A DNA stretch of 32,071 nucleotides from a virus. The DNA lies in IMG/VR virus record IMGVR_UViG_3300021513_000016, positions 1-32,071 of that record. One strand, written 5' to 3'. Within the stretch, counting starts at the first letter, position 1. Every line of letters starts with the position of its first letter. This document shows positions 1,489 to 29,820 of the stretch, in pieces. The notes beneath the pieces are model-generated. The model did no database searches. It was not told the origin of the DNA and was given only the letters and a program-made list of their open reading frames with translations. Made by a program: the position numbers and the translations under genes.

Positions 1489-2636
1489 CTTATCCTTTCC
1501 ATATATTCAAGATTATTTTTTATATTTGATCTTACTTCTTTCATTAACATTGTGCCTACTTTTAATGATCCATTATATTGTTTATAATAATTTAAAATTT
1601 CTTCTTTTTTATCTAATGATTCTCTAATATATTTAGTTACGTATTTTCTAAATTCTAAAAAATCTTTTCTATTTAAATTTTTATTAAGCCATATAATCAT
1701 TGCATTATAATTATGTTTTCTTGATAAACCACATGCTAAATCTAAAGCACCCATAAATTTTTCAGAGGCTCTTGCCATACCAATAAATTCATTATCAATT
1801 GCCCAACATTTATTTGCATTATCAATTATTAAATTTGCTTCATGACGATCACCATTTCCTAATATCATATCAAGTACAAAAATTTTTGCAAGATTATCAA
1901 AATGTTTTTTATAAATTTTTATGTTATCTACTTCATAACCTGCATAAGGTTCAACACCATTTATTATTTTTTGACATGAACCATTGCCTTTTCCAAAATT
2001 ACCTGAAATAGTTTCAGGCACAATATCCCAATTTAAAATTTTTGAAATATTATATGTTGATGTTTCACCAATAATATCTCCTTTTTTCATTATTTTATAT
2101 ATTCCGGCTGAACCATTATTAAATTTTATAATATATGAATTATCATCATGCATACCACCAATTATTCCAAAATCATTTAATGTAATTATTTCTTTTACAT
2201 TATTTTTTGTCATATATGTATGTTCTTTTTCTTTAGGAATTATATCTTTAATTCGTCTTTTATGTGGTTTATGCCAAAATCCTTTTTTATCTCTAAAACC
2301 TTTAACATTTATTTCTCTTTTATTTAAATCTTGTAAATTTAATTCTATTTTTTTTATTTTATCACCCATAAAAGATTCTGAATATTTATATCCTAATGAA
2401 ATTATATAAGCCATTCTTTGAATTTGAATTAATATATTATTTTTAAAATCTGAAAATTTTATTATTCCTTTATGAGTATAACCAAAAGAAAATTTTAAAA
2501 GATATTTTAAATCTGCTGATGCATTTGGACTCGAAGTCCAATGAATATTTTGACAATTTTTTGGATTTATACCTTTACCATCAATTCGAATCCATTTATC
2601 ACCATTTTTATAAATTGAATAAAAATTTTTATTCAT
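1485..2636 (-). CDS. Virion-region kinase-like protein (HipA / PI-kinase-like fold)
   Basis: 383 residues. The C-terminal half looks like an atypical kinase: a strand with GSAGIYKIMKKGD (possible ATP lysine near 181-185), Glu191 in IIGETSTYN, a catalytic-loop-like block LGNGDRHEANLI (Asp263, His265, Asn268) and a metal-site-like AIDNEF (Asp281). This arrangement is found in HipA-like and phosphatidylinositol-kinase-like families, including those near phage head genes. The N-terminal ~130 residues hold a basic stretch VKGFRDKKGFWHKPHKRR (about 111-128), which may be another version of a virion adaptor segment. The ATG overlaps the TAA of the upstream MuF/peptidase gene by one base. The substrate is unknown, and an injected host-modifying kinase is inference. 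Confidence 0.6.
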   Translation of the reverse strand: MNKNFYSIYKNGDKWIRIDGKGINPKNCQNIHWTSSPNASADLKYLLKFSFGYTHKGIIKFSDFKNNILIQIQRMAYIISLGYKYSESFMGDKIKKIELNLQDLNKREINVKGFRDKKGFWHKPHKRRIKDIIPKEKEHTYMTKNNVKEIITLNDFGIIGGMHDDNSYIIKFNNGSAGIYKIMKKGDIIGETSTYNISKILNWDIVPETISGNFGKGNGSCQKIINGVEPYAGYEVDNIKIYKKHFDNLAKIFVLDMILGNGDRHEANLIIDNANKCWAIDNEFIGMARASEKFMGALDLACGLSRKHNYNAMIIWLNKNLNRKDFLEFRKYVTKYIRESLDKKEEILNYYKQYNGSLKVGTMLMKEVRSNIKNNLEYMERIR

Positions 2637-4093
2637 TATATCCTCCCAGCCATTATTGCGAGTGTTAAATAAAAATGCTCAGGATCTTTTTCTAATAATA
2701 ATTCGGCAGTATTTTTATTATTTAAATATTGCATTCCCATTGAAAGTATTTCTGTTGATCTAAAACCAGTATAAATTTTTCCTATATATGGGTGAATAAA
2801 TTTATCTTTTTTTACAATTTCATATTTATTATAAGGAATATCTGGAAATAAATCTTTTAAATATTCTGTTTCATTATTTTTAGTTCTATTATTAAAAAAT
2901 TTTACTAAAATATTATGAATTTTTTTACTATTATTTTCTATTATATGTCCAAATTCATGTTCTAATGTTGCATTTAAATATCCTTCTTTTAATACAATTG
3001 TATCTTCAGTAGAATAAGATCTTCCTTTTTCATTACTTAAAATTATATTTATTTTTCCAATTAAAGATTTTAATGAATCCGAAATTTTTGATGATAGATT
3101 AATCATTTCATTTTTTACAAATACAACATCATTAATATTCTTTGAATAAAATTCAAGATCATAATTTATTTGATCTTTTTGTGATCCTATTACATTTTGA
3201 ATAGCAATATTAATATCTTTTTCTTTTTCAAAAGTTTTTTCAAAATCTTTTTTTACAAAATAAATTTTTTTATCAGTTTCAAAATCACCAGTTACATTTA
3301 TCCAATCTGCTGGTTTTTCTTGTTCTTTTCTACCCAATCTTTGTTTTCTTTGAAATACCTTACCTTGCCTATGAACAGTTACGTAACCTTCATGAGTTCC
3401 CCGTTCATTTTTTTCTAATGGATTAATATCTATTTCTATTTTTGAAATTGAATCAGCAATATACATTAAACCATTTTTATGTATTATTTCTGGAAGTTCT
3501 TGCAAAGGAATTATTGTACAACGACATTGAGGACGATTAGGTGGATACATAAATTTTTCATTAGTTTTTGGATCTATAAATGGATCATTTAACTTTTGAA
3601 TTTGTCCATTTAGTCTTTTACTGTCAGCAGCAGTACGTTTATTATTCATTGCTGCTTTCCACATTTTAAATTTAACAATACCAGATTTTTCATAAGCACT
3701 ATGTCTACCTGCATTCATTGCTGTTAATAATTCAGTTCGTGCAATTCTTTCAAGTTCAAAATCTTGCATTCGTTCAAAAATAGTTGATAATCTTTTTTTA
3801 ATTTGTGTTATAGATTCTTTATTTTGAATTCCTTCTAATAATTCTAATGATAAATTACCTTTTAATCTTGCCATTGTTTTATTAGAAAGAATAATTTCAC
3901 GATTATGTAAATATTCTAATGCTTCAGGATCTGGTTTTGAATTAGTAAAATTATAATATTTATTTGTTTCATTATAACTATTTATAAAAGTATCAATTAT
4001 TTTTTCTGTAAGAATTTTTTCAAATTCTTCGAATCCTATAGTTTCAATAATTTTTTCTATAAGTGAAAGTTCTATTTTTGAAAGATTCTGCAT
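2636..4093 (-). CDS. MuF-like head morphogenesis protein fused to an HExxH metallopeptidase
   Basis: 485 residues in three parts. Residues ~90-205 are a MuF/SPP1 gp7-like head domain: ARTELLTAMNAGRHSAYEKS, the block KMWKAAMNNKRTAADSKRLNG, then PPNRPQCRCTIIPL. Residues ~229-258 are a short basic segment ERGTHEGYVTVHRQGKVF followed by QRKQRLGRKE, which recurs in the ADP-ribosyltransferase gene. Residues ~290-485 contain HEFGH (379-383), a gluzincin-type zinc site, with a possible third ligand Glu448 in RSTEILSMG. MuF domains sit at the portal and can carry C-terminal effector domains that enter the cell with DNA. The peptidase target is unknown. The N-terminus follows a GAGGT ribosome-binding site. 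Confidence 0.8.
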   Translation of the reverse strand: MQNLSKIELSLIEKIIETIGFEEFEKILTEKIIDTFINSYNETNKYYNFTNSKPDPEALEYLHNREIILSNKTMARLKGNLSLELLEGIQNKESITQIKKRLSTIFERMQDFELERIARTELLTAMNAGRHSAYEKSGIVKFKMWKAAMNNKRTAADSKRLNGQIQKLNDPFIDPKTNEKFMYPPNRPQCRCTIIPLQELPEIIHKNGLMYIADSISKIEIDINPLEKNERGTHEGYVTVHRQGKVFQRKQRLGRKEQEKPADWINVTGDFETDKKIYFVKKDFEKTFEKEKDINIAIQNVIGSQKDQINYDLEFYSKNINDVVFVKNEMINLSSKISDSLKSLIGKINIILSNEKGRSYSTEDTIVLKEGYLNATLEHEFGHIIENNSKKIHNILVKFFNNRTKNNETEYLKDLFPDIPYNKYEIVKKDKFIHPYIGKIYTGFRSTEILSMGMQYLNNKNTAELLLEKDPEHFYLTLAIMAGRI

Positions 4094-5654: not shown

Positions 5655-6608
5655 AGATCTCCACCAAATGATGTATCATTTTTAAATACAATGATAGGAT
5701 TTGAAGATATTGTAAATTCTCTTTCACTGAATATATCAGATAAACCCCAAAATAACCAAATATTTTTTTTTTGGAAATGAGTGTCTAATAATTATTCCAT
5801 CCTTCATTGCAAAGGCTTTTGCAATATTAAAACGTTCTGACCATGATGATAAAGATGCTAATTCTACTTTACATTTTCCATCTTTATTTAATGTTTCTTT
5901 AATTTTTTCAGCTCTATTTTCTTTAATTCCACGATATAATTTTATATTATCTGTATCTGGAAACATTTTATCCATAACTTGATCAATAAATTTTTTCATT
6001 ACAATAACTTTTTGTAAATAATTTTTATCTAATGCTTTTTCTTTAAGATTTTCTTTAAATTCTTTATCAGGAAAATGACCAAGAATATGTCCAATAACAT
6101 CATCATTTGGTAAATGTGTATCTAAATCTTTTCCAGTTAATTCATTTATTGCCATTTGTAATTTTACTGAATCTATAAATTGTGGGTTATCAAAAAATTT
6201 TTCAACACTTTCTTTAACTGAATTATTTTTTATATTTCCAGCATAAAATGTAATATCATCAAACATATTTTTAAATTTTACAGCACCTTCTGTAATTTCA
6301 AGAGGTACATATAATTTACCATTTTTTAATTTAATATCATCCCATGTTCGAATTAAATTCGACCAATCCCAATCAATACCCATTTTTTTAAATTCATTAG
6401 AATATTTATCTAATTCATCACTGAAATCTAAAGAATCATAATATTCTTGATATTCTTTTTTAGCAAACAATTTTTCATTTTTATTTTTTTCTTTTTGACC
6501 AAGTCTTTGTTTACGCTGGAATATTTTTCCATTACGGTGAACTGTTACGTAACCTTCGTATGTTCCTCGTTCATCTTTTGATAATTTTAATAAATTAATT
6601 TCAATCAT
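5651..6608 (-). CDS. Virion-region ADP-ribosyltransferase with adaptor segment; frame interrupted at an A10 run
   Basis: The N-terminus (about 10-40) carries the adaptor ERGTYEGYVTVHRNGKIF followed by QRKQRLGQKE. The C-terminal domain is an R-S-E type ADP-ribosyltransferase: KLYRGI (Arg226), LSSWS (Ser254-Ser257), then FSEREF (Glu295 and Glu297). The single open frame stops at 5736 after PKKKYLVILGFI. Removing one base from the ten-A run (5763-5772) instead gives KNIWLFWGLSDIFSEREFTI and an end at 5651, restoring the ExE motif and giving 318 residues. The shift could be an assembly error, a recent mutation or programmed slippage. The enzyme would transfer ADP-ribose from NAD to a host target. 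It overlaps the upstream small gene by 8 bases. Confidence 0.7.
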
Positions 6609-6835: not shown

Positions 6836-7582
6836 TTACCAATCTCCATTATATTCTTTTAAATTATCTGGTGGTCCTCCATATAATTTCATTTTAAATT
6901 TATCACAATATTTTTTTATTGCACGTCGATAAGATTTTTCATCATCATTCATAATTGCGTTTTCACAATCAGATTTAATTTTTGTTACAAATTTTTGTGT
7001 TTTTATAATATCTGCCATACCTTTTTCAATTTCATTTATCGTTTCAGATGAAGGAATACATATCCATAAATTATTACTATAAACAGTATGTGCCATCATT
7101 ATATTTGTTCTTTGATAATTATGTCGAGTTGTAACTAACATTATATCTTCTAATGATAATGAATCAAAAGGTAAAATATCACCAAGTGATGGATGAGTAT
7201 GATAAACTGCATAAGTATCCGTACCAGCAGGAACAGAAACAGATAAACCATTACCAATATTATTAACATTACCTAAAAACATTTTATTATTTTTAAAATG
7301 AATAGGAACTGCAATTTCTCTTTCAAGTTTTTTTGATTGTTCTTTTATTTTATTCATTTTAATAATTTCTTGATCTGAAATTCGTATATTTGATGGCATT
7401 GAATTAAGTATTGGTAATTTTCCAGCAATTATAACATTCATATCAATTTTAGTATTTTTTTGTTTTTCTGGTTTTATATCTTCACTTGATTTTACCCATC
7501 GATATTGTTGAAAAGTTTTTCCGCCACGGCGAACTGTAACTTTTTTACGTGTTAAACCAGGACGATCTTTTAAACTAACCAT
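6836..7582 (-). CDS. JAMM/MPN-type metallopeptidase with N-terminal adaptor segment
   Basis: 248 residues. The N-terminus (TRKKVTVRRGGKTFQQYRWV, 11-30) is a divergent version of the VTVHRxGKxF adaptor seen in the ADP-ribosyltransferase and MuF/peptidase proteins. A JAMM-like zinc site follows: a glutamate near 86-89 (KLEREIAVPIHF), then VYHTHPS (His128, His130) and SLSLEDI (Ser143, Asp146). The spacing between HTH and SxxD is a little longer than the classical motif. Families with this fold remove ubiquitin-like tags or process proteins, and archaea use SAMP ubiquitin-like modifiers, which makes a host target plausible but unproven. The start overlaps the portal TAA by one base. Confidence 0.65.
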   Translation of the reverse strand: MVSLKDRPGLTRKKVTVRRGGKTFQQYRWVKSSEDIKPEKQKNTKIDMNVIIAGKLPILNSMPSNIRISDQEIIKMNKIKEQSKKLEREIAVPIHFKNNKMFLGNVNNIGNGLSVSVPAGTDTYAVYHTHPSLGDILPFDSLSLEDIMLVTTRHNYQRTNIMMAHTVYSNNLWICIPSSETINEIEKGMADIIKTQKFVTKIKSDCENAIMNDDEKSYRRAIKKYCDKFKMKLYGGPPDNLKEYNGDW

Positions 7583-9072
7583 TAATCTTCACCATAATTA
7601 TATGAATGTTCTAATTCAGTTTCTTTTGTTTCTGATTCTTCTGAACCAGGTTCAGGTCCTTCTGATTCATATTCTGGTTCTTCTGAACCAAATTCTGATT
7701 CTCCAGGTTCTTCTGGACCACCCATTCCAGCTTGCATTATTTTTTGTTGCATTACTAATTGAGCAAATGGACTATTAAATTCTTTATCTTCATATTCTTT
7801 TTTACCTTCTCGCTTTCTAATTTCATTTATTGTTATTATTCCATCAGTAATTTGAATATGATCTATATCTGTTTGAATTTTTTTATCTTGAAGATCAAGT
7901 GATGTATCAAATTTAAATTGTATATCTTTAGAATAATATTTCCAAATAATTTCTCGATTAAAATAATTTTCTATAAGTGAAAGAATTACACGTACTCCAT
8001 TTTGTTTATAATTTTGTGATTGTGTAATTGCAGTAGCACGATTAATACGATCTGTAAAACCAAGCTCTGATGGTGCTATTTTAAATAATGCAAAAATTAA
8101 TTTTTGAAAATATTCTGCTGATTGGAGCCATTGCATATTTTGTGCTGATATCTGCAAAGGCATTACTTTTGTACCACCAGATGTTATAAGCCATTTACCA
8201 GTATTATTTTCACCTTTTAATTGTTGTTTATATAATTGTGCTCTTTTTCTAAGTTCTTCTGGATCTGTAATATCATCATGTGATATCATACCAGAAATTG
8301 GAAAATTATTTTCATAATATTTTCTTTGTGCTGCTATACTTGCAGTAAGATAATCAGCAATATCTTTTATAATTTGTAATGGAGCAGTACCATATAATGA
8401 TCGACTTTGTGGACGCATCATAAGATAAATAATTTCATCTTTTTGAAATGGAATTGGTCTTGCTTGCACATTTGTAAAAGAATATTGCCAATAACGATAA
8501 ATTTTACCAAATGGATCCGAATCTGCGAGAAAACTTCGACCATCACGACTCATCATTTCTATCGGTGGAATTTTATTATTTGGTTTTAATTCACCAGTTT
8601 CTTTATTATAACATTCTTCTGGAAAAACAAGAATTAATACTCCTGCATCATACATAAGAAGATCAGGAAGCATTCTTTTCATTGTTACTTGATAATCTTC
8701 CATCCATTTCCTGGAACTAAAAAAATCAATTGCATTATCTATTTTATTTTGTAAATCATTAGAAATATCTTCTTCTTCTTTTATTGGAATAATATTAAAT
8801 TTTGTTTGTAATACTGAATCAATAATATGTGATATTACCATTCGGACATAAACATTATTTTCATATTGTTCTAATTCCCCATAATCAATTCCAAGTCGCG
8901 GACGACCGAAAACTGGATTAATATAGAAATCTCGGGTAAAAGTGGCCTTATGACCTGGATTGGGTGAATCTAAGACATATTGAACAGGACTAACTTGATT
9001 TTGATAAACTGTTGTTGCTATTAAAGAACCCATCTGAGGATTAATTTGATAATTATAACCATTGTTTGCCAT
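7582..9072 (-). CDS. Portal protein (HK97-type)
   Basis: 496 residues with the usual portal layout. Features include an N-terminal strand region, RMVISHIIDSVLQTKFNIIP (clip/stem helices), MMRPQSRSLYGTAPLQIIKD, DYLTASIAAQRKYYENNF, the APSELGF element and a C-terminal helix with GKKEYEDKEFNSPF. The last ~50 residues are a low-complexity acidic tail rich in Glu, Gly, Pro and Ser. The portal forms the dodecameric DNA channel at one capsid vertex and docks the terminase. It is downstream of the large terminase, as expected, and its stop overlaps the JAMM gene start, tying that gene to the portal. Confidence 0.85.
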   Translation of the reverse strand: MANNGYNYQINPQMGSLIATTVYQNQVSPVQYVLDSPNPGHKATFTRDFYINPVFGRPRLGIDYGELEQYENNVYVRMVISHIIDSVLQTKFNIIPIKEEEDISNDLQNKIDNAIDFFSSRKWMEDYQVTMKRMLPDLLMYDAGVLILVFPEECYNKETGELKPNNKIPPIEMMSRDGRSFLADSDPFGKIYRYWQYSFTNVQARPIPFQKDEIIYLMMRPQSRSLYGTAPLQIIKDIADYLTASIAAQRKYYENNFPISGMISHDDITDPEELRKRAQLYKQQLKGENNTGKWLITSGGTKVMPLQISAQNMQWLQSAEYFQKLIFALFKIAPSELGFTDRINRATAITQSQNYKQNGVRVILSLIENYFNREIIWKYYSKDIQFKFDTSLDLQDKKIQTDIDHIQITDGIITINEIRKREGKKEYEDKEFNSPFAQLVMQQKIMQAGMGGPEEPGESEFGSEEPEYESEGPEPGSEESETKETELEHSYNYGED

Positions 9073-9741: not shown

Positions 9742-11100
9742 TTATATTGAAATAATAATTGGATCAATTACTTGGGTTTTAAAACTATTTATTGCATATC
9801 CAAGAGCATCTACCATATCATCGTGAACAGAATCGGGGAAAAGAAGTAACTCATCAATTAAATCTTGTTGATATTTTTTATGGAAAAATAAATTTCCATT
9901 TTCAATCCAAGGTGAAAAAGCCATTGCACGAGATATTTTATCGCCTACTGGTTTAATTCCTTTTATTGGCAATCCACCAATAGATTGCAATTCCTGAATT
10001 AAAGCTTTCTGGTAAGCTACATCTTCAATTAAAATCTTTTGTGGATTCCATATTTCATTCATTTCAATAATTTTCTCTTTTTGTTGTGTAAAAGTCCAAT
10101 GACCTTTTTTTACATCAAGAATATATAATTTATTATCTTCACCTTTACCAACAACACATAATACTGAAAAATCAGCAGAATCTTTTTGAGATATAGCAGG
10201 ATCTACGCCTATATGAATTTTTTTTATTTTTATAGATTTATTATCTTGGTTTATAATAATTTCATTCTTTTTTAATAATGAATCATAAAATTTAAACCAT
10301 TCATATTTAAATATATTTCCTTCTTGAAGTAAACTAACATCATTCATATATTGAAGATTCCATATAATAGATCCTAATTCTTCTCTTTTCTGTTCTAATT
10401 TTTTTAATGGATAAAGCCATTCACATAAAGCCTTTCCAGTTTCAGAATCAATTGCCGGCATTTTAAGCACAGAATACTTTAAATCATCAATAAGGAACTG
10501 ATAGAGATCTGATGGATGATAACGAGTTCCAAGGACCCCGATTTTTGAATTAGCAAGCGGAACGGGCATTAAACTGGTTTTATACCAATCTAAATCTTTT
10601 TCACGTTGTGATTGGGAACGAGCAGAAGCAAAGGAAATGAGATCATCGAGATATAAATGAGTTGAATGGAGTCCTGTAATTTGACCAGAACCAGAACCGA
10701 CAGACATAAGAGTTGGTTCTGTGTGATGCTCTGTCCTGGTACTTAATTCTATTTCATGGTCAGACCAAGGAATTCCTTTTAACTCTCCATAATATTTTTT
10801 AATTATTGGATTATATTCAATTGTATTTCTAATAGATCGAAGAAATACCATTGCTTTTTTATCCGATTCTGAAGCTAAAATTATACGTAAATTTGGATTA
10901 TTAACAATTAACCAAGTAATATAACCACTTAACATTTTAGACTTACCATGACCTCTTGGAAGTAAAATTAAAGCATTTTGTGCATTTTCAAGATGATCAA
11001 GAATCATTGAATGAATACCATCAATACGATATCCATAAACTTTATTAACAAAATAATGTGGAGAATATTTTAATAATTGTTTTATTTGAATATCTACCAT
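9742..11100 (-). CDS. Terminase large subunit
   Basis: 452 residues. ATPase domain: Walker A LLPRGHGKS (47-54), Walker B HLYLDD (148-153), coupling-motif-like LGTRYHPSD. Nuclease domain (RNase H fold): IGVDPAISQKDSADF (Asp300), ILIEDVAYQKA (Glu359/Asp360) and DSVHDDMVDALGYA (Asp427-Asp431). All three acidic clusters are present, so the enzyme should be active in cutting concatemers and pumping DNA into the prohead through the portal. The start has a GAGGT ribosome-binding site. It is unusual in being separated from the small subunit by a broken homing-endonuclease gene. Confidence 0.92.
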   Translation of the reverse strand: MVDIQIKQLLKYSPHYFVNKVYGYRIDGIHSMILDHLENAQNALILLPRGHGKSKMLSGYITWLIVNNPNLRIILASESDKKAMVFLRSIRNTIEYNPIIKKYYGELKGIPWSDHEIELSTRTEHHTEPTLMSVGSGSGQITGLHSTHLYLDDLISFASARSQSQREKDLDWYKTSLMPVPLANSKIGVLGTRYHPSDLYQFLIDDLKYSVLKMPAIDSETGKALCEWLYPLKKLEQKREELGSIIWNLQYMNDVSLLQEGNIFKYEWFKFYDSLLKKNEIIINQDNKSIKIKKIHIGVDPAISQKDSADFSVLCVVGKGEDNKLYILDVKKGHWTFTQQKEKIIEMNEIWNPQKILIEDVAYQKALIQELQSIGGLPIKGIKPVGDKISRAMAFSPWIENGNLFFHKKYQQDLIDELLLFPDSVHDDMVDALGYAINSFKTQVIDPIIISI

Positions 11101-11122
11101 TTATACCTCAAATATAAAATAT

Positions 11123-12018
11123 TTATAATTTATAAATATAAATTACATTTTCAATTTTTTCTATACACTTATCTATATCTTTTTTAATTTCATCATCCCA
11201 AAATCTAAGTATTTTGTATCCTTCTTTTTCTATTTTAATATCACGTTATTTATCTCTTTCTTGGACATTGGATTATCATGCCAATATCTTCCATCACATT
11301 CTATAATTATATTATAATCTGTTAATAGTATATCAACACTATATATTAATATTTTAAATTGTGTTTTAAAGTTATAATTTCTTTTTTCTAATTCTTTTTG
11401 CATTATAAGTTCTATATTTGTATTTTCTGTTGGATGTAAACAACCACAGGATTTTGTATGACCAGTTTTTAATGAATTTAATAAACAATTTTTTATAGTT
11501 TTATTTTCACATTGACATTGACATTTAAAAATTAAATTTCCATTTTTATCTCTTTTTACATATTCTAAAATTTTCCATCTTCCAAAAGTTTTACCAATCA
11601 TTTCTCTAATATTACATTCACCACATGATTTAGAAGATCCAGATAATAAACTTGTACTACTAACTATTTTTTTATTTCCACATTTACATAAACATAAATA
11701 AGCTGGTTTATTATATAATAATCCATTTTCTTTTAAAACTAACTAATCTCCAAATTTTTTTCCAATTAATTTATTTTTATGTAATTTATCAAAACATTCT
11801 CTACATAAAATTGATTTATATCTATATTCCATTTTTTGAACTTTTTTACAATGATTACATATTATAAAAACTTTTTTACCAGATTTTGGATATTTTTTAA
11901 AATATATTTCTAATTCTTCTTTAGTTTTATTATGTAATTTTGTAGTTTTTTCCCAATCAATTTTAAAATTTTTATTATTTTTATAAAAATTTTTAAATTC
12001 ACTTATTTTTTTCTTCAT
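11123..12018 (-). pseudogene. Broken homing-type endonuclease (Vsr/DUF559-like) inserted between terminase subunits
   Basis: One degraded gene in pieces. The N-terminal piece (MKKKISEFKNFYKNNKNFKI, then a zinc-ribbon-like IICNHCKKVQ and CRECFDKL) ends at a TAG (11743-11745) that falls where a tryptophan is expected in IGKKFGD-LVLKENG. The same frame then continues through CLCKCGNKKI and a second repeat unit IGKTFGRWKILEY with SCGCL. The nuclease part is IIECDGRYWHDN; after a frame change it reads VQERDK, a TAA, RDIKIEKEGYKILRFWDDEI. The shared motifs (ECDGRYWH, RD, LRFW) are those of very-short-patch/DUF559 nucleases. One nonsense codon, one shift and one TAA indicate an inactive element. Its N-terminus matches the HNH gene at 12583-13353. 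Confidence 0.7.
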
Positions 12019-12039
12019 AATTTCAATTATAAAAATTAA

Positions 12040-12579
12040 TTAAATATCTATGTTTTTATTTTTATTTTCTTTAGATGTAATTTCTTTTCCTAACTTTTTA
12101 ATCAATTCGGGATCCACATCTTCAAATTCAATCTTCATATCAGTCTCATTTTTAATAATTTCTGATGGTTGATTATTTAAAAGCATTTCAAGTTTTGTGG
12201 CCTTATCTATTAAAGAAATACAATCTTTTAATGACATTTCATCGATTTCTTCTTCAGATTTTAGAATTTTTTGTATTTTCTTTTGACCTAAAATTGCCAT
12301 AATCGATGCCAATTTCTTTTGTTTAATTCGAATAAATTGAAGTTCTTCATTGGCTTTTAACTCGTCCTGCTCGAATATAAAACGATCATAAGCCTTAGAT
12401 CTCGATTCCCAGTCATTAATGAATTTTAATCGATAAATACTACCTTTTAACTCTTTATATTGTAAAAATTCAAGCATTGTATATATTGACCGTGAAGGTC
12501 CTAAAGAAACATAATCAAGAAATATTCCATAATCTTCATCCGATTCTCTTTCTAATTGATCCCAAGCTTTTTTTGTCAT
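12040..12579 (-). CDS. Terminase small subunit
   Basis: 179 residues, mostly helical and highly charged. It contains the N-terminal SRSIYTMLEFLQYKELKGSI helix-turn-helix-like region and then FINDWESRSKAYDRFIFEQ, a pattern common in small terminases (W..RA..YD.....), followed by a long basic helix IRIKQKKLASIMAILGQKK and a C-terminal acidic/basic tail. It recognises viral DNA and recruits the large subunit. Position upstream of the large subunit supports the call. It is flanked on both sides by homing-endonuclease genes. Confidence 0.7.
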   Translation of the reverse strand: MTKKAWDQLERESDEDYGIFLDYVSLGPSRSIYTMLEFLQYKELKGSIYRLKFINDWESRSKAYDRFIFEQDELKANEELQFIRIKQKKLASIMAILGQKKIQKILKSEEEIDEMSLKDCISLIDKATKLEMLLNNQPSEIIKNETDMKIEFEDVDPELIKKLGKEITSKENKNKNIDI

Positions 12580-15710: not shown

Positions 15711-15750
15711 TAATACCTTATAAAGCTTTCTCTTTTCAACTTTTAAAGTT
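15711..15750 (-). promoter_or_regulatory. Early promoter/operator cassette A
   Basis: Minus-strand AACTTTAAAAGTTGAAAAGA then GAAAGCTTTATAAGG and TATTA. The first 13 bases are a near-perfect palindrome (possible operator), followed by BRE and TATA about 47 bases before the ATG at 15671. Related cassettes occur at 16312-16353, 18069-18110, 19576-19617, 20857-20898 and 26529-26566. Confidence 0.8.
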
Positions 15751-19630: not shown

Positions 19631-19852
19631 TCAAACTATAATTAATATTTTAAAAATAATAATTAACAAAAATACAATAAATAATGTAATATTACATATA
19701 TTTAAACAATTTAATGCCCATTTATTCCAAATTTTTGATTCAATAAAAATTTCTTCAATTGAAAGATTTATAATTAAAGAAATTGTTATAAACATTCCAT
19801 AATATAAAATTTCATTAATTGAAATAAATTGAGTGTTTATTATAGTTAACAT
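19631..19852 (-). CDS. Two-span membrane protein, 73 aa
   Basis: Two hydrophobic helices, YYGMFITISLIINLSI and ITLFIVFLLIIIFKILIIV, separated by an acidic and aromatic loop. The start overlaps the stop of the tandem-repeat surface protein gene. Holin-like size and topology, but no other evidence for lysis; could equally be an effector at the host membrane. Confidence 0.5.
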   Translation of the reverse strand: MLTIINTQFISINEILYYGMFITISLIINLSIEEIFIESKIWNKWALNCLNICNITLFIVFLLIIIFKILIIV

Positions 19853-20208
19853 TTATTAAACCTCAATAATATAATTAATCCCAAACAAAATAATATAAAT
19901 GATGATGCCTCAGAAACCGGTTCAACGGGTTCAATTGGTCTATTTCTTCTATTACCTTTAACTTTTGTATTATTATGATTTATTTTATCTTGGACTATTG
20001 TACCATTATCCTGGACCATTGTATCATTATCCTGGACCATTATATCATTATCCTGGACCATTATATCATTATCCTGGACCATTGTACCATTATCTTGGAC
20101 CATTGTACCATTATCTTGGACCATTGTACCATTATCCTGAATTATAAATATAATACACATTATTATTATTAAATTTATAATCATTAAACTAATTTTAATT
20201 ATATTCAT
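19846..20208 (-). CDS. Tandem-repeat surface protein with N-terminal signal and C-terminal sorting-like anchor
   Basis: 120 residues. The N-terminus is hydrophobic (LMIINLIIIMCIIFIIQ, signal or anchor). Seven copies of a 7-residue unit DNGTMVQ (variants DND-I-M) follow, then a basic linker (KGNRRNR). The C-terminus reads PIEPVEPVSEASS, one hydrophobic helix and a short basic end RFNKC. That layout (Pro/Glu motif, helix, basic end) resembles PEF/PEP-CTERM-like tails handled by archaeosortases. The repeats contain N-G-T/N-D-T sites that could be glycosylated. It may decorate the host envelope or the virion. The sorting role is inferred. Confidence 0.6.
   Translation of the reverse strand: MNIIKISLMIINLIIIMCIIFIIQDNGTMVQDNGTMVQDNGTMVQDNDIMVQDNDIMVQDNDTMVQDNGTIVQDKINHNNTKVKGNRRNRPIEPVEPVSEASSFILFCLGLIILLRFNKC
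19988..20138 (-). repeat. Seven 21-bp tandem repeats inside the surface-protein gene
   Basis: Units read GATAATGGTACAATGGTCCA plus one base, with a few third-base or A/G changes. The array is in frame and could expand or shrink by one unit without a frameshift. A related sequence, GGTACATTGGTCCA, occurs twice outside genes near 20.9 kb. Confidence 0.85.
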
Positions 20209-20956: not shown

Positions 20957-21169
20957 ATTTTTTGGCTAATTAACTAAAATAAACGCTTTATTTCAAAATT
21001 ATAAACTTGTAATTGGATAATTTTTAAACTACTTTATTTGGAAAAAAATTGGGTTTGGTGGGATATTTGGCTCTTTGCTTAATTTTTTGGGTCTTTTTTA
21101 ATTACTATTACTTATAATTTTCTGTTCGAATGTTAAGAGATAAGATAATATAAGTGCACTTTTCACAAA

Positions 21170-21298
21170 ATGATAGCAGGAGAGGCGCGAGCTAAGTCCC
21201 AAATACTTTTCATTTTAATTTTATTTTCTTTTGTTCTATTTTCTTATATTATAAAAAAGTATGTTCATTCACTACTTAACTCCTGGATTCAAAAATGA
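21170..21298 (+). CDS. Possible small membrane protein, 42 aa, opposite strand
   Basis: From the first repeat copy, the plus frame reads MIAGEARAKSQILFILILFS, then FVLFSYIIKKYVHSLLNSWI QK and TGA. It has one hydrophobic helix. The TGA overlaps the ATG of the second repeat copy. There is no ribosome-binding site, but an AT-rich box (ATAATATAAG) lies about 20-25 bases upstream, which could fit a leaderless transcript. It is on the strand opposite to neighbouring genes. Weak call. Confidence 0.3.
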   Translation: MIAGEARAKSQILFILILFSFVLFSYIIKKYVHSLLNSWIQK

Positions 21299-21319
21299 TA
21301 GCAGGAGATACAATAGCAT

Positions 21320-21357
21320 CGATATAAGTGGAAGTAACACCTATATCACTTACATCG
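21320..21357 (-). ncRNA. 11-bp stem-loop, candidate RNA element
   Basis: On the minus strand CGATGTAAGTG and CACTTATATCG pair over 11 positions (one G-U), with a 16-base loop. It lies downstream of the NucS/winged-helix gene and between two copies of the direct repeat. It may be part of a 3' untranslated structure, a small RNA or an origin hairpin. Confidence 0.4.
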
Positions 21358-21429
21358 ACAGGAGTAATAAAAAAATGAAATAAAATAACATTTTACTAAA
21401 AAATGATAGCAGGAGATACAATAAAAATT

Positions 21430-21456
21430 GTTAACTAATTAAATTTTTAAGTTAAC
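21430..21456 (-). terminator. Inverted repeat with T-run after the NucS/winged-helix gene
   Basis: GTTAACT and AGTTAAC flank an AT-only loop and are followed on the minus strand by AATTTTTATT. The stop codon TAA is in the first arm. This fits a transcription end for the replication operon; archaeal termination mainly needs the U-run. Confidence 0.5.
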
Positions 21457-22060
21457 AGGAATTATTATATGTAATTGAATATTTTTTTGTATTAGAATTC
21501 TTTCTTCCAATTTTATAACCTAATTTTTCAAGATCAACTTTAATTCGTTTTAATTCCTTTCCGATTGCAATTGCCGATTTATAAGGACAATTACCACTGA
21601 GTCTAAGTTCATTTAATAAATCAGTTGATGAACCAGTCCATTTATCTATTATATTATTAATTATCCATTTTCCTAAAATGTTTTGACTAATTTGATTTAT
21701 ATCTTGATCAATTTCTTTATTATCAATTATTGTAGTTATTTTATAAGGTATTAAACTAATATTTAATTTTTTAGCAATAAGTTTAACTCTTTTATTAAAA
21801 TCATTTGCCAAAATAATTCCTCTTTTAGCATTTATTGCTTCCATATAACCTAAAATCTGTCCAATGGCAGAATCACCAGCTTTACCAACCTTTATCTCAA
21901 TTACAACATAAAAACCATTTTTATCTTGTGCTAATATATCAATATATCCAACATTAGTTTTATATTCATATTGTGGCTTATATAATCCTAATTTAGAAAT
22001 ATCTAAATTTTTTTGAATTTCTTTTTCAATTTGTAAAATTTTATTATTATTTTGATTCAT
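21452..22060 (-). CDS. NucS-like (DUF91) nuclease fused to a winged-helix domain
   Basis: 202 residues. The N-terminal nuclease domain (about 20-110) has the PD-(D/E)xK layout of NucS/EndoMS: GYIDILAQD (Asp41), VVIEIKVGKAG (Glu55, Lys57), then AIGQILGYM (Gln68) and KRGIILA. The NucS N-terminal dimer/DNA domain is missing. The C-terminal part (about 125-195) is nearly the same as the C-terminus of the neighbouring primase-helicase: KWTGSSTDLLNELRLSGNCP and GKELKRIKVDLEKLGYKIG. This winged-helix tail probably targets the nuclease to the sites or partners used by the helicase. It probably cuts mismatched or branched DNA during viral replication. Confidence 0.75.
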   Translation of the reverse strand: MNQNNNKILQIEKEIQKNLDISKLGLYKPQYEYKTNVGYIDILAQDKNGFYVVIEIKVGKAGDSAIGQILGYMEAINAKRGIILANDFNKRVKLIAKKLNISLIPYKITTIIDNKEIDQDINQISQNILGKWIINNIIDKWTGSSTDLLNELRLSGNCPYKSAIAIGKELKRIKVDLEKLGYKIGRKNSNTKKYSITYNNSC

Positions 22061-22066
22061 TTTAAT

Positions 22067-24391
22067 TCATTCCTTTGAAATTGAATATTTACCCGTATGT
22101 GTATTCTTTTTTCCAATTTTATATCCCAATTGCTCAAGATCTATTCTAATTCGCTTTAATTCCTTTCCAACCCCAATTGCAGTTTTATAAGGACAATTAC
22201 CACTAAATTTAAGTTCATTTAATAAATCACTTGACGAACCAACCCATTTATCCGTTACATTTTCAATAATCCAACTACCTAATACACTTTCATTTATTAC
22301 TTGATTAATATTTCCAATTTGATTAATTTTAAAAGCAGTATCAACTTCTTCTTTAGTAATTCCATTATATTCAGCAACTAAAACAGTTACCCAATAATAA
22401 TCAGACAATCTAATAGGACTTTTTCCATTTAATTTATCAATATTTTTCATTACATATACTAAATTATCTAAAATTGCACCAAATGTTTCAGATTCATTCC
22501 CTTCTAATATACTATTACTATTCCAACCACCTTTAATTCTTTCTAATTGAATTCTAATTGTCCTATCCAAAATATCTGCTCTTCTAAACGTATCATTAAT
22601 CCCATTAATAATAACAGTTGGTCTAAAAATAACTCTAATCATTTTAGAAGTTTTATATAATTCACGAACATCAATTGCACCACCCGTCGCAGCCTGTGCA
22701 AAAATATCACTTTGACGTTGTGTCAAATTACTTATATTATCAACAACATAAATAGTATTTTGTGCCAAAGCCATACTTAATTCACGATCATTATCACCCA
22801 AAGCACTTCTACCATCTCCACTAACCGGATCAATTAACTGTTTTAAAAATGTAGAAATAGTACTTTTCCCTGAACCATGATCACCAGTTATATTCAAAAT
22901 TGGATGATTAATATTTTCAATTAACGAACCAACCAACATTCCCATAACCATTATTTTTTCATTTTTATTAATTGGTAATATATTCAATAAATCATATAAT
23001 TTTTTCCCACCAACAGGTTTAACATTTTCTTTTTGAATATCAATCGGTCTAAATATAACTTTATCAAGATCAATTTCTTTAATATTCCATCCATTACCAT
23101 TAACAACAATCATCTCATTTTCATTTAATTTATAATAAATATTATTATCAATAAAAGCAGTTCTTAAATAAGTTTTTTTAATATTATTTTCAGCACGCAT
23201 TGTTAAAATATCTCGAATATCATGTTTCCATTTAGTTGGGGTTCCAAACTTCTCATAAACCCAACTTGTGATAACAGCATTTATATTATCAGTAAATTCT
23301 AAACATTTATTATTATAAATTATAAATAATCGACCACTTTCAGAATCTTTATAAATTATAGAATCATTATAAATTCCTTCAACAATACTTTTTAAATTAT
23401 ATTCCAATTCATTATTATGTTTTTTAACATATCTTTCAATATCTTTAACAATTTCATTTAAATTATTATGTTTTCTACCAATTTTTGAAAATTTTATAAT
23501 ATAAGGTATTTCACTTTCTTTATCAAAACCATCTTTTATTAAATGTCCAATTAATGCCCATTCAACTTCACTTTTAGTATTATATTTATCATTTAATTTT
23601 CCTTTATATAATTTTTTTGATATAGTTGACATTTTATCTAATGTGTCAGGTGTTAATGTATTATTTTTAATTTTTAATTTAATATCAACTTTATTTAATT
23701 CATTTAATATATCATTTTTAACATTTTTAACTTTTTCAAGTTCTTTTAAAAATTCTTCATTTTCTATTCTTTCGACTCCATTAAATTTATCACGCATCCT
23801 ATTTATCATACCCCTTTTAACATCTTCCCTTTTCACATTAATAGTTCCCGGCATTCCTGAAACCCTTCTTTTATCTTTAACAGCCACATCAATATTAGGA
23901 CATATATTAACCAAATCATTTAAATATTTTTCAACTCCCTTACTTATGTCATTTTGTGTTTCAGGAATTGGAATAATCCATCTATAACCATTTCCAGTCA
24001 TAGATTCATAATAGTTTATTTCATTTTCATAAAGAAAAATATTAATATTATTTTTTTGTTCTATTAAATTATCAATATCTTGTTGTGAAGCCGCAAACCC
24101 ATTTCCATGATTAGTATTATCTAAATCAATATAAATATTTCTAACACATAATACATCACTATCTTTACCCCATCCCTCAACATCATATTTATAAGGATTT
24201 AAATTAACCCAAATTTGATATTTTCCATTATATTTATCAATAAATTTTTTACCATTATCAATATCATTTAAATCTTTAACATAAAATTTATCAATAGGTT
24301 TACTATTAATAGCATCAAAAACATTAATAATATAACATTCTTGTCCAGGTTTCCAACCAAGAAATTTCAAATATTCCTTTAAATTATACAT
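22067..24391 (-). CDS. Primase (AEP/PrimPol-like) - SF3 helicase fusion, replication initiator
   Basis: 774 residues. The N-terminal primase domain carries NIYIDLDNT (Asp89, Asp91), SMTGNGYRWIIPIP (131-143, where families often have sGxH) and KRRVSGMPGTINVK (174-187). A linker (about 210-470) follows. The helicase has Walker A ITGDHGSGKST (501-511), Walker B TIYVVDNIS (Asp551), sensor IINGIND (595-600) and RRADILDR (603-610). The last ~75 residues are a winged helix (KWVGSSSDLLNELKFSGNCP) shared with the adjacent nuclease. It should prime and unwind viral DNA at the origin. The likely origin is close by. The start overlaps none of its neighbours; no TATA cassette precedes it. Confidence 0.85.
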   Translation of the reverse strand: MYNLKEYLKFLGWKPGQECYIINVFDAINSKPIDKFYVKDLNDIDNGKKFIDKYNGKYQIWVNLNPYKYDVEGWGKDSDVLCVRNIYIDLDNTNHGNGFAASQQDIDNLIEQKNNINIFLYENEINYYESMTGNGYRWIIPIPETQNDISKGVEKYLNDLVNICPNIDVAVKDKRRVSGMPGTINVKREDVKRGMINRMRDKFNGVERIENEEFLKELEKVKNVKNDILNELNKVDIKLKIKNNTLTPDTLDKMSTISKKLYKGKLNDKYNTKSEVEWALIGHLIKDGFDKESEIPYIIKFSKIGRKHNNLNEIVKDIERYVKKHNNELEYNLKSIVEGIYNDSIIYKDSESGRLFIIYNNKCLEFTDNINAVITSWVYEKFGTPTKWKHDIRDILTMRAENNIKKTYLRTAFIDNNIYYKLNENEMIVVNGNGWNIKEIDLDKVIFRPIDIQKENVKPVGGKKLYDLLNILPINKNEKIMVMGMLVGSLIENINHPILNITGDHGSGKSTISTFLKQLIDPVSGDGRSALGDNDRELSMALAQNTIYVVDNISNLTQRQSDIFAQAATGGAIDVRELYKTSKMIRVIFRPTVIINGINDTFRRADILDRTIRIQLERIKGGWNSNSILEGNESETFGAILDNLVYVMKNIDKLNGKSPIRLSDYYWVTVLVAEYNGITKEEVDTAFKINQIGNINQVINESVLGSWIIENVTDKWVGSSSDLLNELKFSGNCPYKTAIGVGKELKRIRIDLEQLGYKIGKKNTHTGKYSISKE

Positions 24392-24396
24392 TTAGT

Positions 24397-24876
24397 TCAC
24401 CTTTTAGGTTCATAATGTGGGCAATAATCCAGATCTTCATTATTATGTTCTAATGTCATCATTATTTGATCAAATAAAAAACATTTTTTATTTATATTAA
24501 TACAATTATCACATATAAGTGGATTTTTATTTAAATCAATTTTATTTTCATTAAAATATTCTACTTCCACATTCAATTCATATTTAATAAGATCAATATT
24601 CAAATCCTCAGCAATAAGTTTAACTCTATCAGAAAAACTTTGTGCAATAATAATCCCTTTTTCAGCATTTATTGCCTTCATATAACCCAAAATTTGTCCA
24701 ATAGCATTATCACCCGCTTCACCCAATTTAACTTCAATTGGAACTAAATTTCCATTATCATCTTCACATAAAATATCAATATGACCAACATCAGTATTAT
24801 ATTCATATTCAAGAAAAATTAATCCCAATTCATTTAAATTAATATTATTTCTAATAAAATTTTCATTAATTTCCAT
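24397..24876 (-). CDS. NucS-like nuclease with C-terminal cysteine cluster
   Basis: 159 residues. Nuclease motifs VGHIDILCED (Asp34), VPIEVKLGEAG (Glu48, Lys50), AIGQILGYM (Gln61) and EKGIIIA are intact. After residue 110 a cysteine cluster follows (ICDNCININKKC, then YCPHYEPKR: Cys122, 125, 132, 152), probably a zinc or Fe-S site replacing the winged helix. It is in the operon just upstream of the primase-helicase, with a 5-base gap. Likely repair or recombination nuclease of the virus. Confidence 0.7.
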   Translation of the reverse strand: MEINENFIRNNINLNELGLIFLEYEYNTDVGHIDILCEDDNGNLVPIEVKLGEAGDNAIGQILGYMKAINAEKGIIIAQSFSDRVKLIAEDLNIDLIKYELNVEVEYFNENKIDLNKNPLICDNCININKKCFLFDQIMMTLEHNNEDLDYCPHYEPKR

Positions 24877-24881
24877 TTATA

Positions 24882-25229
24882 TCACCATTTAATATATTCC
24901 ATTTTCACATTTACTTCATATTTAACAAGATCAATATCAAAATCTTCAGCAATAAATTTAACATCATTAGAAAAATCTTGTGCAATAATAATTCCTCTTT
25001 CAGCATTTATTGCCTTCATATAACCCAAAATTTGACAAATATCTTCTACTTTTTCTAATTTAACTTCAATTGGAACTAAATTTTCATTATCATCTTCACA
25101 TAAAATATCAATACATTTAGCATTAGTATTAAATCCATATTTAATTAAATTTAATCCCAATTCATCTATATTAATATTTTCTTTAATATAATTTAATTTT
25201 AAATTGTTTATATTAATATTATCTTCCAT
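24882..25229 (-). CDS. Third NucS-like protein, shortened and diverged
   Basis: 115 residues, clearly a paralogue of the next gene (IDELGLNLIKYGFNTNAKCI; IDILCEDDNENLVPIEVKLE). Asp41, Glu55, Lys57 and Gln66 are present, but the GEAGDNAIG segment is reduced to KVEDIC and the glycine in VGHID is replaced by KC. It ends soon after the nuclease core and lacks the cysteine cluster. It could be a regulatory partner, a heterodimer subunit, or a decaying copy. Confidence 0.65.
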   Translation of the reverse strand: MEDNININNLKLNYIKENINIDELGLNLIKYGFNTNAKCIDILCEDDNENLVPIEVKLEKVEDICQILGYMKAINAERGIIIAQDFSNDVKFIAEDFDIDLVKYEVNVKMEYIKW

Positions 25230-25757: not shown

Positions 25758-26081
25758 TTACCCAATATAATAAATTCTTTTAATCCCAACACTTTCAATA
25801 AGTTTTTGACATAATGAACATGGTTTAGATATTCTTCCATTTATCCTTAAAATAATCATTGTAGCATTAGAAAAATCAATACCAATTCTATTACCCTTTA
25901 AAATAGCCATTTCTTCAGCATGAATACTCCATTGTGTTCTTTTATTAGTTTTACAACCATAAGACCGATTCCAACCAATCACATATTTTTTAGAATCAAA
26001 CAAACAAACACCCAATTTCTGCCGCATATTTGATCGTCTACAAGCTTTTACTGCCAAATTATAAGCATCATTAAATTTCAT
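25758..26081 (-). CDS. Cytidine/deoxycytidylate deaminase family protein
   Basis: 107 residues from the chosen ATG (MKFNDAYNLAVKACRRSNMR). The zinc site is complete: SIHAEEMA (His54, catalytic Glu56) and KPCSLCQKL (Cys88, Cys91). It is short compared with bacterial dCMP deaminases and resembles the simple cytidine/dCMP deaminase core; a nucleotide-pool role (dCMP to dUMP) or base-editing role are both possible. An ATG nine bases upstream is an alternative start. The start overlaps the end of the upstream gene. Confidence 0.75.
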   Translation of the reverse strand: MKFNDAYNLAVKACRRSNMRQKLGVCLFDSKKYVIGWNRSYGCKTNKRTQWSIHAEEMAILKGNRIGIDFSNATMIILRINGRISKPCSLCQKLIESVGIKRIYYIG

Positions 26082-26298
26082 ACAAATCAATTCCAGTCAA
26101 TCTATAACCATTAATATTATTTTCTAAATATTTATAATCCAAAAGAAAATTTATATAAAGATCAATATCTAAATTTAAATTTTCTATATGTCTAATTAAA
26201 ATTTTTTTAGGAATATTTGATAAAATTCCAAATTCATTAAATCCATCATTTCTTAATTTTACACAAATCATAGTACAATTATTTTTTATCATTTTCAT
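26071..26298 (-). CDS. Hypothetical protein, 75 aa
   Basis: Begins MKMIKNNCTMICVKLRNDGF and ends RLTGIDLYEI. The helical middle (PKKILIRHIENLNLDIDLYI) followed by DYKYLENNINGYRLTGID suggests a winged-helix-like shape. Its end overlaps the deaminase start. Possibly a small regulator; not recognised. Confidence 0.5.
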   Translation of the reverse strand: MKMIKNNCTMICVKLRNDGFNEFGILSNIPKKILIRHIENLNLDIDLYINFLLDYKYLENNINGYRLTGIDLYEI

Positions 26299-29064: not shown

Positions 29065-29820
29065 ATGTTAAAATTATGTGCATTATTACCAATTAATTAT
29101 CTCCATTGGGGTAATAATCTTAATGATTATCATTTAATTTTACCACATATTGCCGAAAAATCAAAATTATATTTAAATCATTTTAAATATCAAAATGAAT
29201 ATAAAATAGTTGATAATTCAACATTTGAATTAGGGCATTCAGTTTCAAATGAATTAATATATCAAATAGTAAAAGAAATTAATGCTGATGCATACTTTCT
29301 TCCAGAAATTAAAAATAATGAAAAAGAAAGTACTAAAATACGAAATCAATTTTTAAAATCTGAAATATATAATAATTTATATGATAAATTAACATATCAT
29401 GCATTGCAATCGAAAGATGCAATTCCAATTGGAGATTATATTTCAATTCCAGCACATCTTAATCGCCCAAGAGTTATAGATCAATTATTTCAAAAATATG
29501 GTTATATTTTTAATCCAATATATCTAAGTGGTCTTACCGGTGGTAAAAGAAAATTTGATATAACAAAAATTGCAGAATTAATATATTTACAAAAAAAATA
29601 TCCAAATTTAGATATATATATGGATACATCTCTTCCTTATTTATTAACAAAAATAAATACATCATTGAATAAATTAATTTTGACAGGTAATCGACCAAAA
29701 CTTCCGAAAATGGATTTTTGGGATTTTAATTTATATGATTTTAAACTATTTCAATATAATTTTTGGAATCTAAAATCATTAACTCATATTAATGATAAAA
29801 TTAGTAAAATAAAAATTTAG
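29065..29820 (+). CDS. DpdA-like transglycosylase (TGT family), candidate 7-deazaguanine DNA modification
   Basis: 251 residues with a TIM-barrel TGT-like layout: IVDNSTFELG (49-57, similar to DNGaFE..), ADAYFLPEIKNNEKEST (74-90; PD/PE-x-xx region), YMDTSLPYL (Asp187, equivalent to the nucleophilic Asp of the DTS block), and LSGLTGGKRKFD. TGT paralogues such as DpdA insert preQ0 into DNA, giving deazaguanine marks that protect viral DNA. The tRNA-binding PUA domain is absent. None of the preQ0 genes (queC-F, folE) is in the window. The stop is TAG, followed three codons later by TAA. GAGGT is the ribosome-binding site. Confidence 0.5.
   Translation: MLKLCALLPINYLHWGNNLNDYHLILPHIAEKSKLYLNHFKYQNEYKIVDNSTFELGHSVSNELIYQIVKEINADAYFLPEIKNNEKESTKIRNQFLKSEIYNNLYDKLTYHALQSKDAIPIGDYISIPAHLNRPRVIDQLFQKYGYIFNPIYLSGLTGGKRKFDITKIAELIYLQKKYPNLDIYMDTSLPYLLTKINTSLNKLILTGNRPKLPKMDFWDFNLYDFKLFQYNFWNLKSLTHINDKISKIKI

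Follow-up and report, generated by a model that had tools for sequence, protein, structure and literature searches.

A NucS-type nuclease with the winged helix of the adjoining replication helicase: a possible origin-directed nuclease in a tailed virus

Why should a nuclease carry the C-terminal domain of the replication helicase that is encoded next to it? The question is raised by a virus known from environmental DNA alone, IMGVR_UViG_3300021513_000016, whose complete IMG/VR record of 32,071 bases is the window analyzed here. The window contains a tailed-virus head module (terminase, portal, Mu F-like head protein and prohead protease) and, on the − strand, a four-gene operon that encodes, in order of transcription, N3 (24882-25229, 115 residues), N2 (24397-24876, 159 residues), the replication helicase HEL (22067-24391, 774 residues) and N1 (21452-22060, 202 residues). 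All four reading frames are intact and are separated by gaps of 5-6 nt. N1, N2 and N3 have NucS-type catalytic domains, and N1 is a chimera of such a domain and a helicase-type winged helix (wH). The comparisons described below indicate that N1 captured the wH from HEL, and the two proteins are probably directed to a common DNA site, most likely a replication origin.

The wH comprises residues 703-772 of HEL (22076-22285, − strand), as delimited by family hidden Markov models (HMMs) and a structural model, and residues 126-197 of N1 (21470-21685, − strand). When the latter were aligned with HEL residues 701-772, 50 of 72 residues (69%) and ≈80% of the nucleotides were identical. An earlier note, made from the DNA letters alone, had described about 70 residues of N1 as nearly matching the end of HEL; the match does extend over 72 residues, but “nearly” is too strong a word for 69%. 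The best-conserved part is the turn and recognition helix, the predicted DNA contact, in which 19 of 25 residues are identical and 24 similar. Chance similarity was ruled out by a local alignment score of 293, compared with a maximum of 72 in 500 shuffles, and an assembly artefact is unlikely, because the two copies differ at 20% of their bases and are both open. An HMM of the tail that was made without HEL matched the tails of both N1 and HEL, and did not match N2, N3 or the nuclease of a sister virus (described below). With more relatives in the HMM, N1 was the sole non-helicase match (4e-7) among the open reading frames (ORFs) of the first 57 loci.

The direction of transfer could be read from the distribution of the domain. 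A small domain with the pattern W.GTa.ELL ... P ... L.r..p.L...G follows the helicase core in all members of the HEL family examined. It is absent from all NucS relatives of cellular genomes, in which the nuclease domain is C-terminal, behind varied N-terminal domains. The wH was thus copied from the helicase to the nuclease. The earlier note had proposed separate phylogenies of the nuclease and wH parts, and these gave no indication of independent gain. The tails of N1 and HEL are sisters (support 100/99), with the shorter branch leading to N1. The nuclease tree groups the four viral domains in a single clade (99/95); N1 is its deepest branch, N3 comes next, and N2 pairs with the copy of the sister virus. 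We rejected independent gain of the tails on the basis of this topology and of their 69% identity to each other, compared with at most 39% to any other tail.

Both wH copies are under purifying selection, with a ratio of nonsynonymous to synonymous substitution (dN/dS) of 0.34 between the N1 and HEL tails and synonymous sites below saturation. This bears on the simplest account of the fusion, that it is a by-product of recombination, in which a stray helicase 3′ end was left on a nuclease gene and the tail adds nothing specific. The nuclease ends in the operon do vary (a Cys-containing tail, a truncation and a wH), and N3, which is truncated and has lost two residues, evolves almost freely (dN/dS ≈1.2 against N2). 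However, both parts of N1, tail and nuclease domain, remain intact and under constraint (dN/dS 0.34 and ≈0.6, respectively), the N1 tail fits the helicase-family profile better than HEL's own tail does, and the same wH is found on other accessory proteins (see below). We consider a by-product quite improbable.

All three nucleases exceed the Pfam cut-off for the NucS C-terminal (catalytic) domain, NucS_C (N1, 2e-10; N2, 8e-12; N3, 1e-7), and alignments show the PD-(D/E)XK signature D, E, K and Q in each: D41, E55, K57 and Q68 in N1, where the nuclease domain consists of residues 1-110; D34, E48, K50 and Q61 in N2; and D41, E55, K57 and a Q in N3, with a two-residue deletion between the catalytic K and Q. 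The AlphaFold model of N1 (pLDDT 86) has the NucS catalytic fold followed by a C-terminal winged helix with helices (H) and strands (E) in the order H-E-H-H-E-E. The model matched NucS (2vld) with a Z score of 15.2 and 1.6 Å over 99 residues; all matches in this PDB search came from the nuclease domain. The earlier note had stated that the other two nucleases lack the tail, one having a Cys cluster and one being shortened, and this is borne out: the wH is absent from both, N2 has a 51-residue C-terminal tail with four Cys, and N3 ends directly after the nuclease domain. N2 is the orthologue of the sole NucS gene of the sister virus (85% amino acid identity over the domain; positions 7980-8591 of the sister locus, L006), and neither the N2 tail nor the sister's NucS tail had a match among the sequences compared.

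The description of the locus as three NucS-like nucleases around a primase-helicase therefore stands for the three catalytic domains and the helicase core, but “NucS-like” applies to the catalytic domain only. No more than ≈20 residues precede the catalytic domain in the encoded proteins, NCBIfam NucS models align to them only from model position 111-136 onward, and the N-terminal domain that serves NucS in DNA binding, dimerization and mismatch recognition is missing from N1, N2 and N3. Inspection by eye of their C-termini (TYNNSC, YEPKR and YIKW) revealed no sliding-clamp (PIP) motif. By these sequence criteria, the three proteins are not true NucS/EndoMS, and the mismatch or flap activity implied by the name is unsupported, the mismatch-recognition domain being absent.

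HEL has a Walker A motif, GDHGSGKST, and by family alignment an AAA+/SF3-type core, predicted to be hexameric. Its C-terminal half (residues 410-774) was mostly modeled well, with the tail in the same H-E-H-H-E-E order as in N1. The best PDB match was the SaPI5 primase-helicase PriRep1 (7ola, 7om0; Z 16.8 over 365 residues); African swine fever virus PrimPol, poxvirus D5/E5 and SCCmec Cch ranked next. The N-terminal half was modeled with low confidence (pLDDT < 50), had no Pfam match and gave a weak match to Pseudanabaena phage Pam3 (3e-4); it is a probable AEP primase, as suggested by a DxD-like motif (IYIDLD) and later motifs identified by eye. Of the label “primase-helicase”, the second half is thus well supported, while the first comes from sequence motifs alone. 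Plasmid-borne homologues of the C-terminal half are found in Streptomyces, Stanieria, Methylobacterium, Chlorohelix and the archaeon Methanothrix; others are encoded by Microbacterium phage Zeta1847 and by 11 viral contigs. The phage collection contained only weak relatives of HEL and none of N1.

Where might such a helicase bind? SaPI Rep and SCCmec Cch2 use their C-terminal domain to read short repeats directly downstream of their gene, and the C-terminal domain of Cch2 binds the Cch2 repeats by itself (PMC7581432). The winged helix of P4 alpha binds origin repeats, and the pRN1 origin is located downstream of the pRN1 replication gene (PMC4234260). By these precedents, the noncoding stretch 3′ of N1 (21135-21451, no strand assigned), which begins at the point where similarity to the sister virus stops and belongs to the swapped segment (see below), is the natural candidate for the HEL replication origin. 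It contains three exact copies of the 15-mer AATGATAGCAGGAGA, where 0.09 would be expected, and the 15-mer is found nowhere else in the window. The copies lie on the + strand at 21166-21190, 21291-21315 and 21399-21423, with the AATGATAGCAGGAGA cores starting at 21169, 21294 and 21402, respectively. In the sister virus, two near copies occupy the corresponding position (L006 10854-11013), and its 73 kb contain no others.

Our best explanation, which we hold tentatively and at somewhat less than even confidence, is that N1 is an origin-directed nuclease. HEL would recognize the replication origin via its C-terminal wH, as suggested by SaPI Rep/Cch2, P4 alpha and pRN1 ORF904, and the repeats directly downstream of N1 would be its candidate target. 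If HEL reads its origin in this way, then N1 should bind the same or a related sequence: the tail would bring the nuclease to a HEL-type origin, and the DNA would be cut there. N2 and N3 would be accessory copies without the wH address tag. The earlier note suggested that the shared domain may send both proteins to the same origin or fork, an idea in keeping with the repeats 3′ of N1 and with the precedents set by SaPI Rep, P4 alpha and pRN1. Since N1 is encoded beside the matching helicase, its target may be either the virus's own origin or that of a rival. In the one case, the cut would disable satellites or related replicons with an origin of the HEL type, a form of competition like that of the phage nuclease Odn (discussed below); in the other, N1 would nick or process the virus's own origin or its replication intermediates. 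We give the two options equal weight. Scans of viral contigs and of ≈1,480 genomes revealed no competitor initiator with a tail closer to that of N1; the nearest is the virus's own HEL.

Several points weigh against an origin-directed N1. A nuclease that reads the origin of its own virus would need a means of sparing it, and the wH might bind DNA without sequence preference. The AATGATAGCAGGAGA repeats are retained in the sister virus, where the primase-helicase belongs to a different family; some other factor may thus read them, or they may be an element of the operon end. Furthermore, repeats downstream of the helicase were clear in only ≈2 of the 19 HEL relatives examined, and downstream repeats as a general feature of the helicase family were not upheld.

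The wH might instead be a general tether that contacts DNA or the helicase, rather than an origin reader, making N1 a repair or processing nuclease associated with the fork. N1 shares an operon with the helicase, and its tail is more basic than that of HEL (net charge +8 and +3, respectively), both of which would suit such a role. The missing mismatch-recognition/dimerization domain and the lack of a visible C-terminal clamp-binding motif argue otherwise. The best-studied relatives of HEL also use their C-terminal domain to read specific origin repeats, and we regard a fork-associated role as rather unlikely.

Comparison with the sister virus, IMGVR_UViG_3300021512_000005 (73 kb), placed the operon in a wider context. 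The two viruses are collinear at ≈85-96% identity in DNA, with terminase and portal proteins that are 94% and 97% identical, respectively. Similarity breaks at 24569, which is the end of the N2 nuclease domain, and resumes at 21135 (L006 8287-11036); between these points, only the short repeats and a weaker match to the N1 nuclease domain are common to both viruses. At this place the sister virus has a single NucS gene, whose product ends in a 95-residue tail of its own, and the next gene encodes a Prim-Pol/D5 primase-helicase from another family; the 73 kb of the sister contain no match to HEL and no second NucS match. With the flanks kept and the replication genes different, the sequences indicate that the replication module was exchanged as a block between the two viruses, with a NucS-type gene at the seam in both. 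Scans of viral contigs with N1, HEL and the tail pair found no relative beyond the sister virus and no third virus with the HEL-N1 cassette, which was thus seen in one virus.

This arrangement invites another interpretation, in which the products of the NucS genes act like homing nucleases: encoded on either side of the replication module, they would drive its exchange between related viruses, with the wH of N1 aiming the cut at a rival's allelic replication locus. The positions of the breaks agree with this, as does the location of NucS genes on both sides of HEL in the window and directly ahead of the different primase-helicase in the sister. Phage nucleases have also been reported at boundaries of genetic exchange and on either side of essential genes (PMC10448857). 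However, the swap is one event between the only two viruses compared, a break at a gene boundary would also be expected from homologous recombination within a shared gene, and the NucS domain is not known as a homing nuclease. We consider homing-like exchange unlikely.

The swap also affects how the history of the nucleases is read. N2 and N3, with a proportion of synonymous differences (pS) of 0.14, are the more recent tandem pair. The split of N1 preceded that between N2 and the sister copy, and N1 may therefore have arrived together with HEL in the swapped module rather than arising in this genome. Of the earlier proposal of duplication and domain shuffling inside the operon, the shuffling holds, in the direction from helicase to nuclease, but recent tandem duplication applies only to N2 and N3, and N1 may be an import. 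The pS values for the N1/HEL tail (0.38) and the N1/N2 domain (0.39) are equal, with wide error bars and the N1/N2 value near saturation. These equal values would fit a history in which a NucS-HEL unit was duplicated in tandem and a deletion came later, but given the error bars and the near-saturation we do not claim it.

The sharing of the wH is not confined to this virus. A search of ≈1,480 genomes with the tail profile gave ≈60 matches, and of the 60 ORFs with the tail in the loci retrieved, 52 have a helicase core as well. One exception is a Bro-N protein with a helicase-type wH on an 18-kb Methylobacterium plasmid contig (L077), whose gene directly adjoins a gene for an Mrr_cat nuclease (11316-12188 and 10422-11306), upstream of a HEL-family helicase. 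Its wH is 45% identical to the tail of the same plasmid's helicase, the highest-scoring of the tails compared. The plasmid resembles the virus in having a HEL-family helicase, a second wH protein nearby and an adjoining PD-(D/E)XK nuclease, although the wH is fused to Bro-N instead of to the nuclease. Another exception is a 130-residue ORF consisting of the wH only (L078 2-391), near the edge of its contig, which shares 4 nt with the end of a phage-type exonuclease gene (388-1098; phrog_298, 2e-36). The remaining exceptions, a TPR protein, unknown proteins and fragments, were weaker or unrelated. By sequence, then, the wH is shared with accessory proteins elsewhere, twice beside nucleases, each case being single. 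A broader idea would be that the wH is a shared address tag, copied onto effectors in several unrelated replicons, so that one origin code directs helicase, nuclease and regulator, with N1 an origin-directed nuclease built around the initiator of its own virus; this we regard as a doubtful proposition, although one worth stating.

Other features of the window were observed along the way. A few hundred bases upstream of the operon is a deoxycytidylate deaminase-like gene (25758-26090; PF00383, 6e-11). A 251-residue protein at 29065-29820 had no Pfam or PHROGs match and a poor NCBIfam match; judged by eye, it may be of the tRNA-guanine transglycosylase type involved in DNA modification. An intergenic cassette (≈54-85 nt) with TTTATAAGGTATTA on the gene strand is found at 15711, 16314, 18071, 19578 and 20859. 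It precedes several leftward genes in both viruses, often with a Shine-Dalgarno-like end, and resembles a duplicated promoter, possibly of archaeal type. The ORF at 19846-20208 contains a 21-nt tandem array (19964-20160) that encodes MVQDN(G/D)T units between two hydrophobic segments, and the copy types of the array differ in the sister virus. Finally, a short coding stretch is common to the head-region proteins encoded at 2636-4093, 5736-6608 and 6836-7582, with several copies in locus L008; it reads EG.VTVHR.GK.FQRKQRLG in the first two and could be a common signal or linker. One of the proteins that share it carries a DRAT-like ADP-ribosyltransferase domain.

Compared to known systems, the viral nucleases share the catalytic fold and active-site residues of NucS/EndoMS (PDB 2vld, 5gke; PMC8228993), but their catalytic domain is N-terminal and followed by variable C-terminal tails, and they have neither the N-terminal DNA-binding/dimerization domain nor a visible clamp-binding motif. 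A review has stated that no viruses have NucS (PMC8228993); the present operon documents viral use of the NucS-type catalytic domain. Over its helicase core and C-terminal domain, HEL aligns with primase-helicases of the SaPI5 Rep/SCCmec Cch2 type and D5-like enzymes (PDB 7ola; PMC7581432), although sequence identity to SaPI5 Rep is very low (≈12%). As in the SaPI Rep systems, repeats are located downstream of the replication genes, but here a nuclease gene with the same C-terminal domain intervenes between HEL and the repeats.

The closest parallel to N1 is Odn of phage ICP1, a nuclease with a RepA_N domain that is 42% identical to that of a satellite's initiator; cleavage of the satellite origin by Odn requires the iterons, and the nuclease is believed to have driven the swapping of replication modules in satellites (PMC8263062). 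More cases of origin-directed nucleases have been described (PMC10448857). Odn and N1 alike combine a nuclease domain with an initiator's DNA-binding domain, HEL being taken as an initiator by homology, and the predicted target of N1 is likewise a set of repeats, three in number, at the candidate origin. The building blocks differ: Odn combines T5orf172 with an N-terminal RepA_N domain, while N1 combines a NucS-type PD-(D/E)XK domain with a C-terminal wH of helicase type. Because the defining features of both are absent, N1 is classed neither as NucS/EndoMS nor as Odn. If the binding prediction holds, N1 would work like Odn. Origin-aimed nucleases with a borrowed initiator domain have already been described in the conflict between phages and satellites, from one set of building blocks; N1, if our explanation is true, would have been built independently, out of a NucS-type nuclease and a wH like that of SaPI Rep. 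The locus also records the swap of a whole replication module between viruses that are otherwise ≈85-96% identical, with a nuclease gene at the breakpoint. The initiator mimicked by Odn belongs to a satellite, whereas the helicase that matches N1 adjoins it in the same virus, and the N1/HEL pair permits a direct test of initiator DNA-binding domains as transferable address tags.

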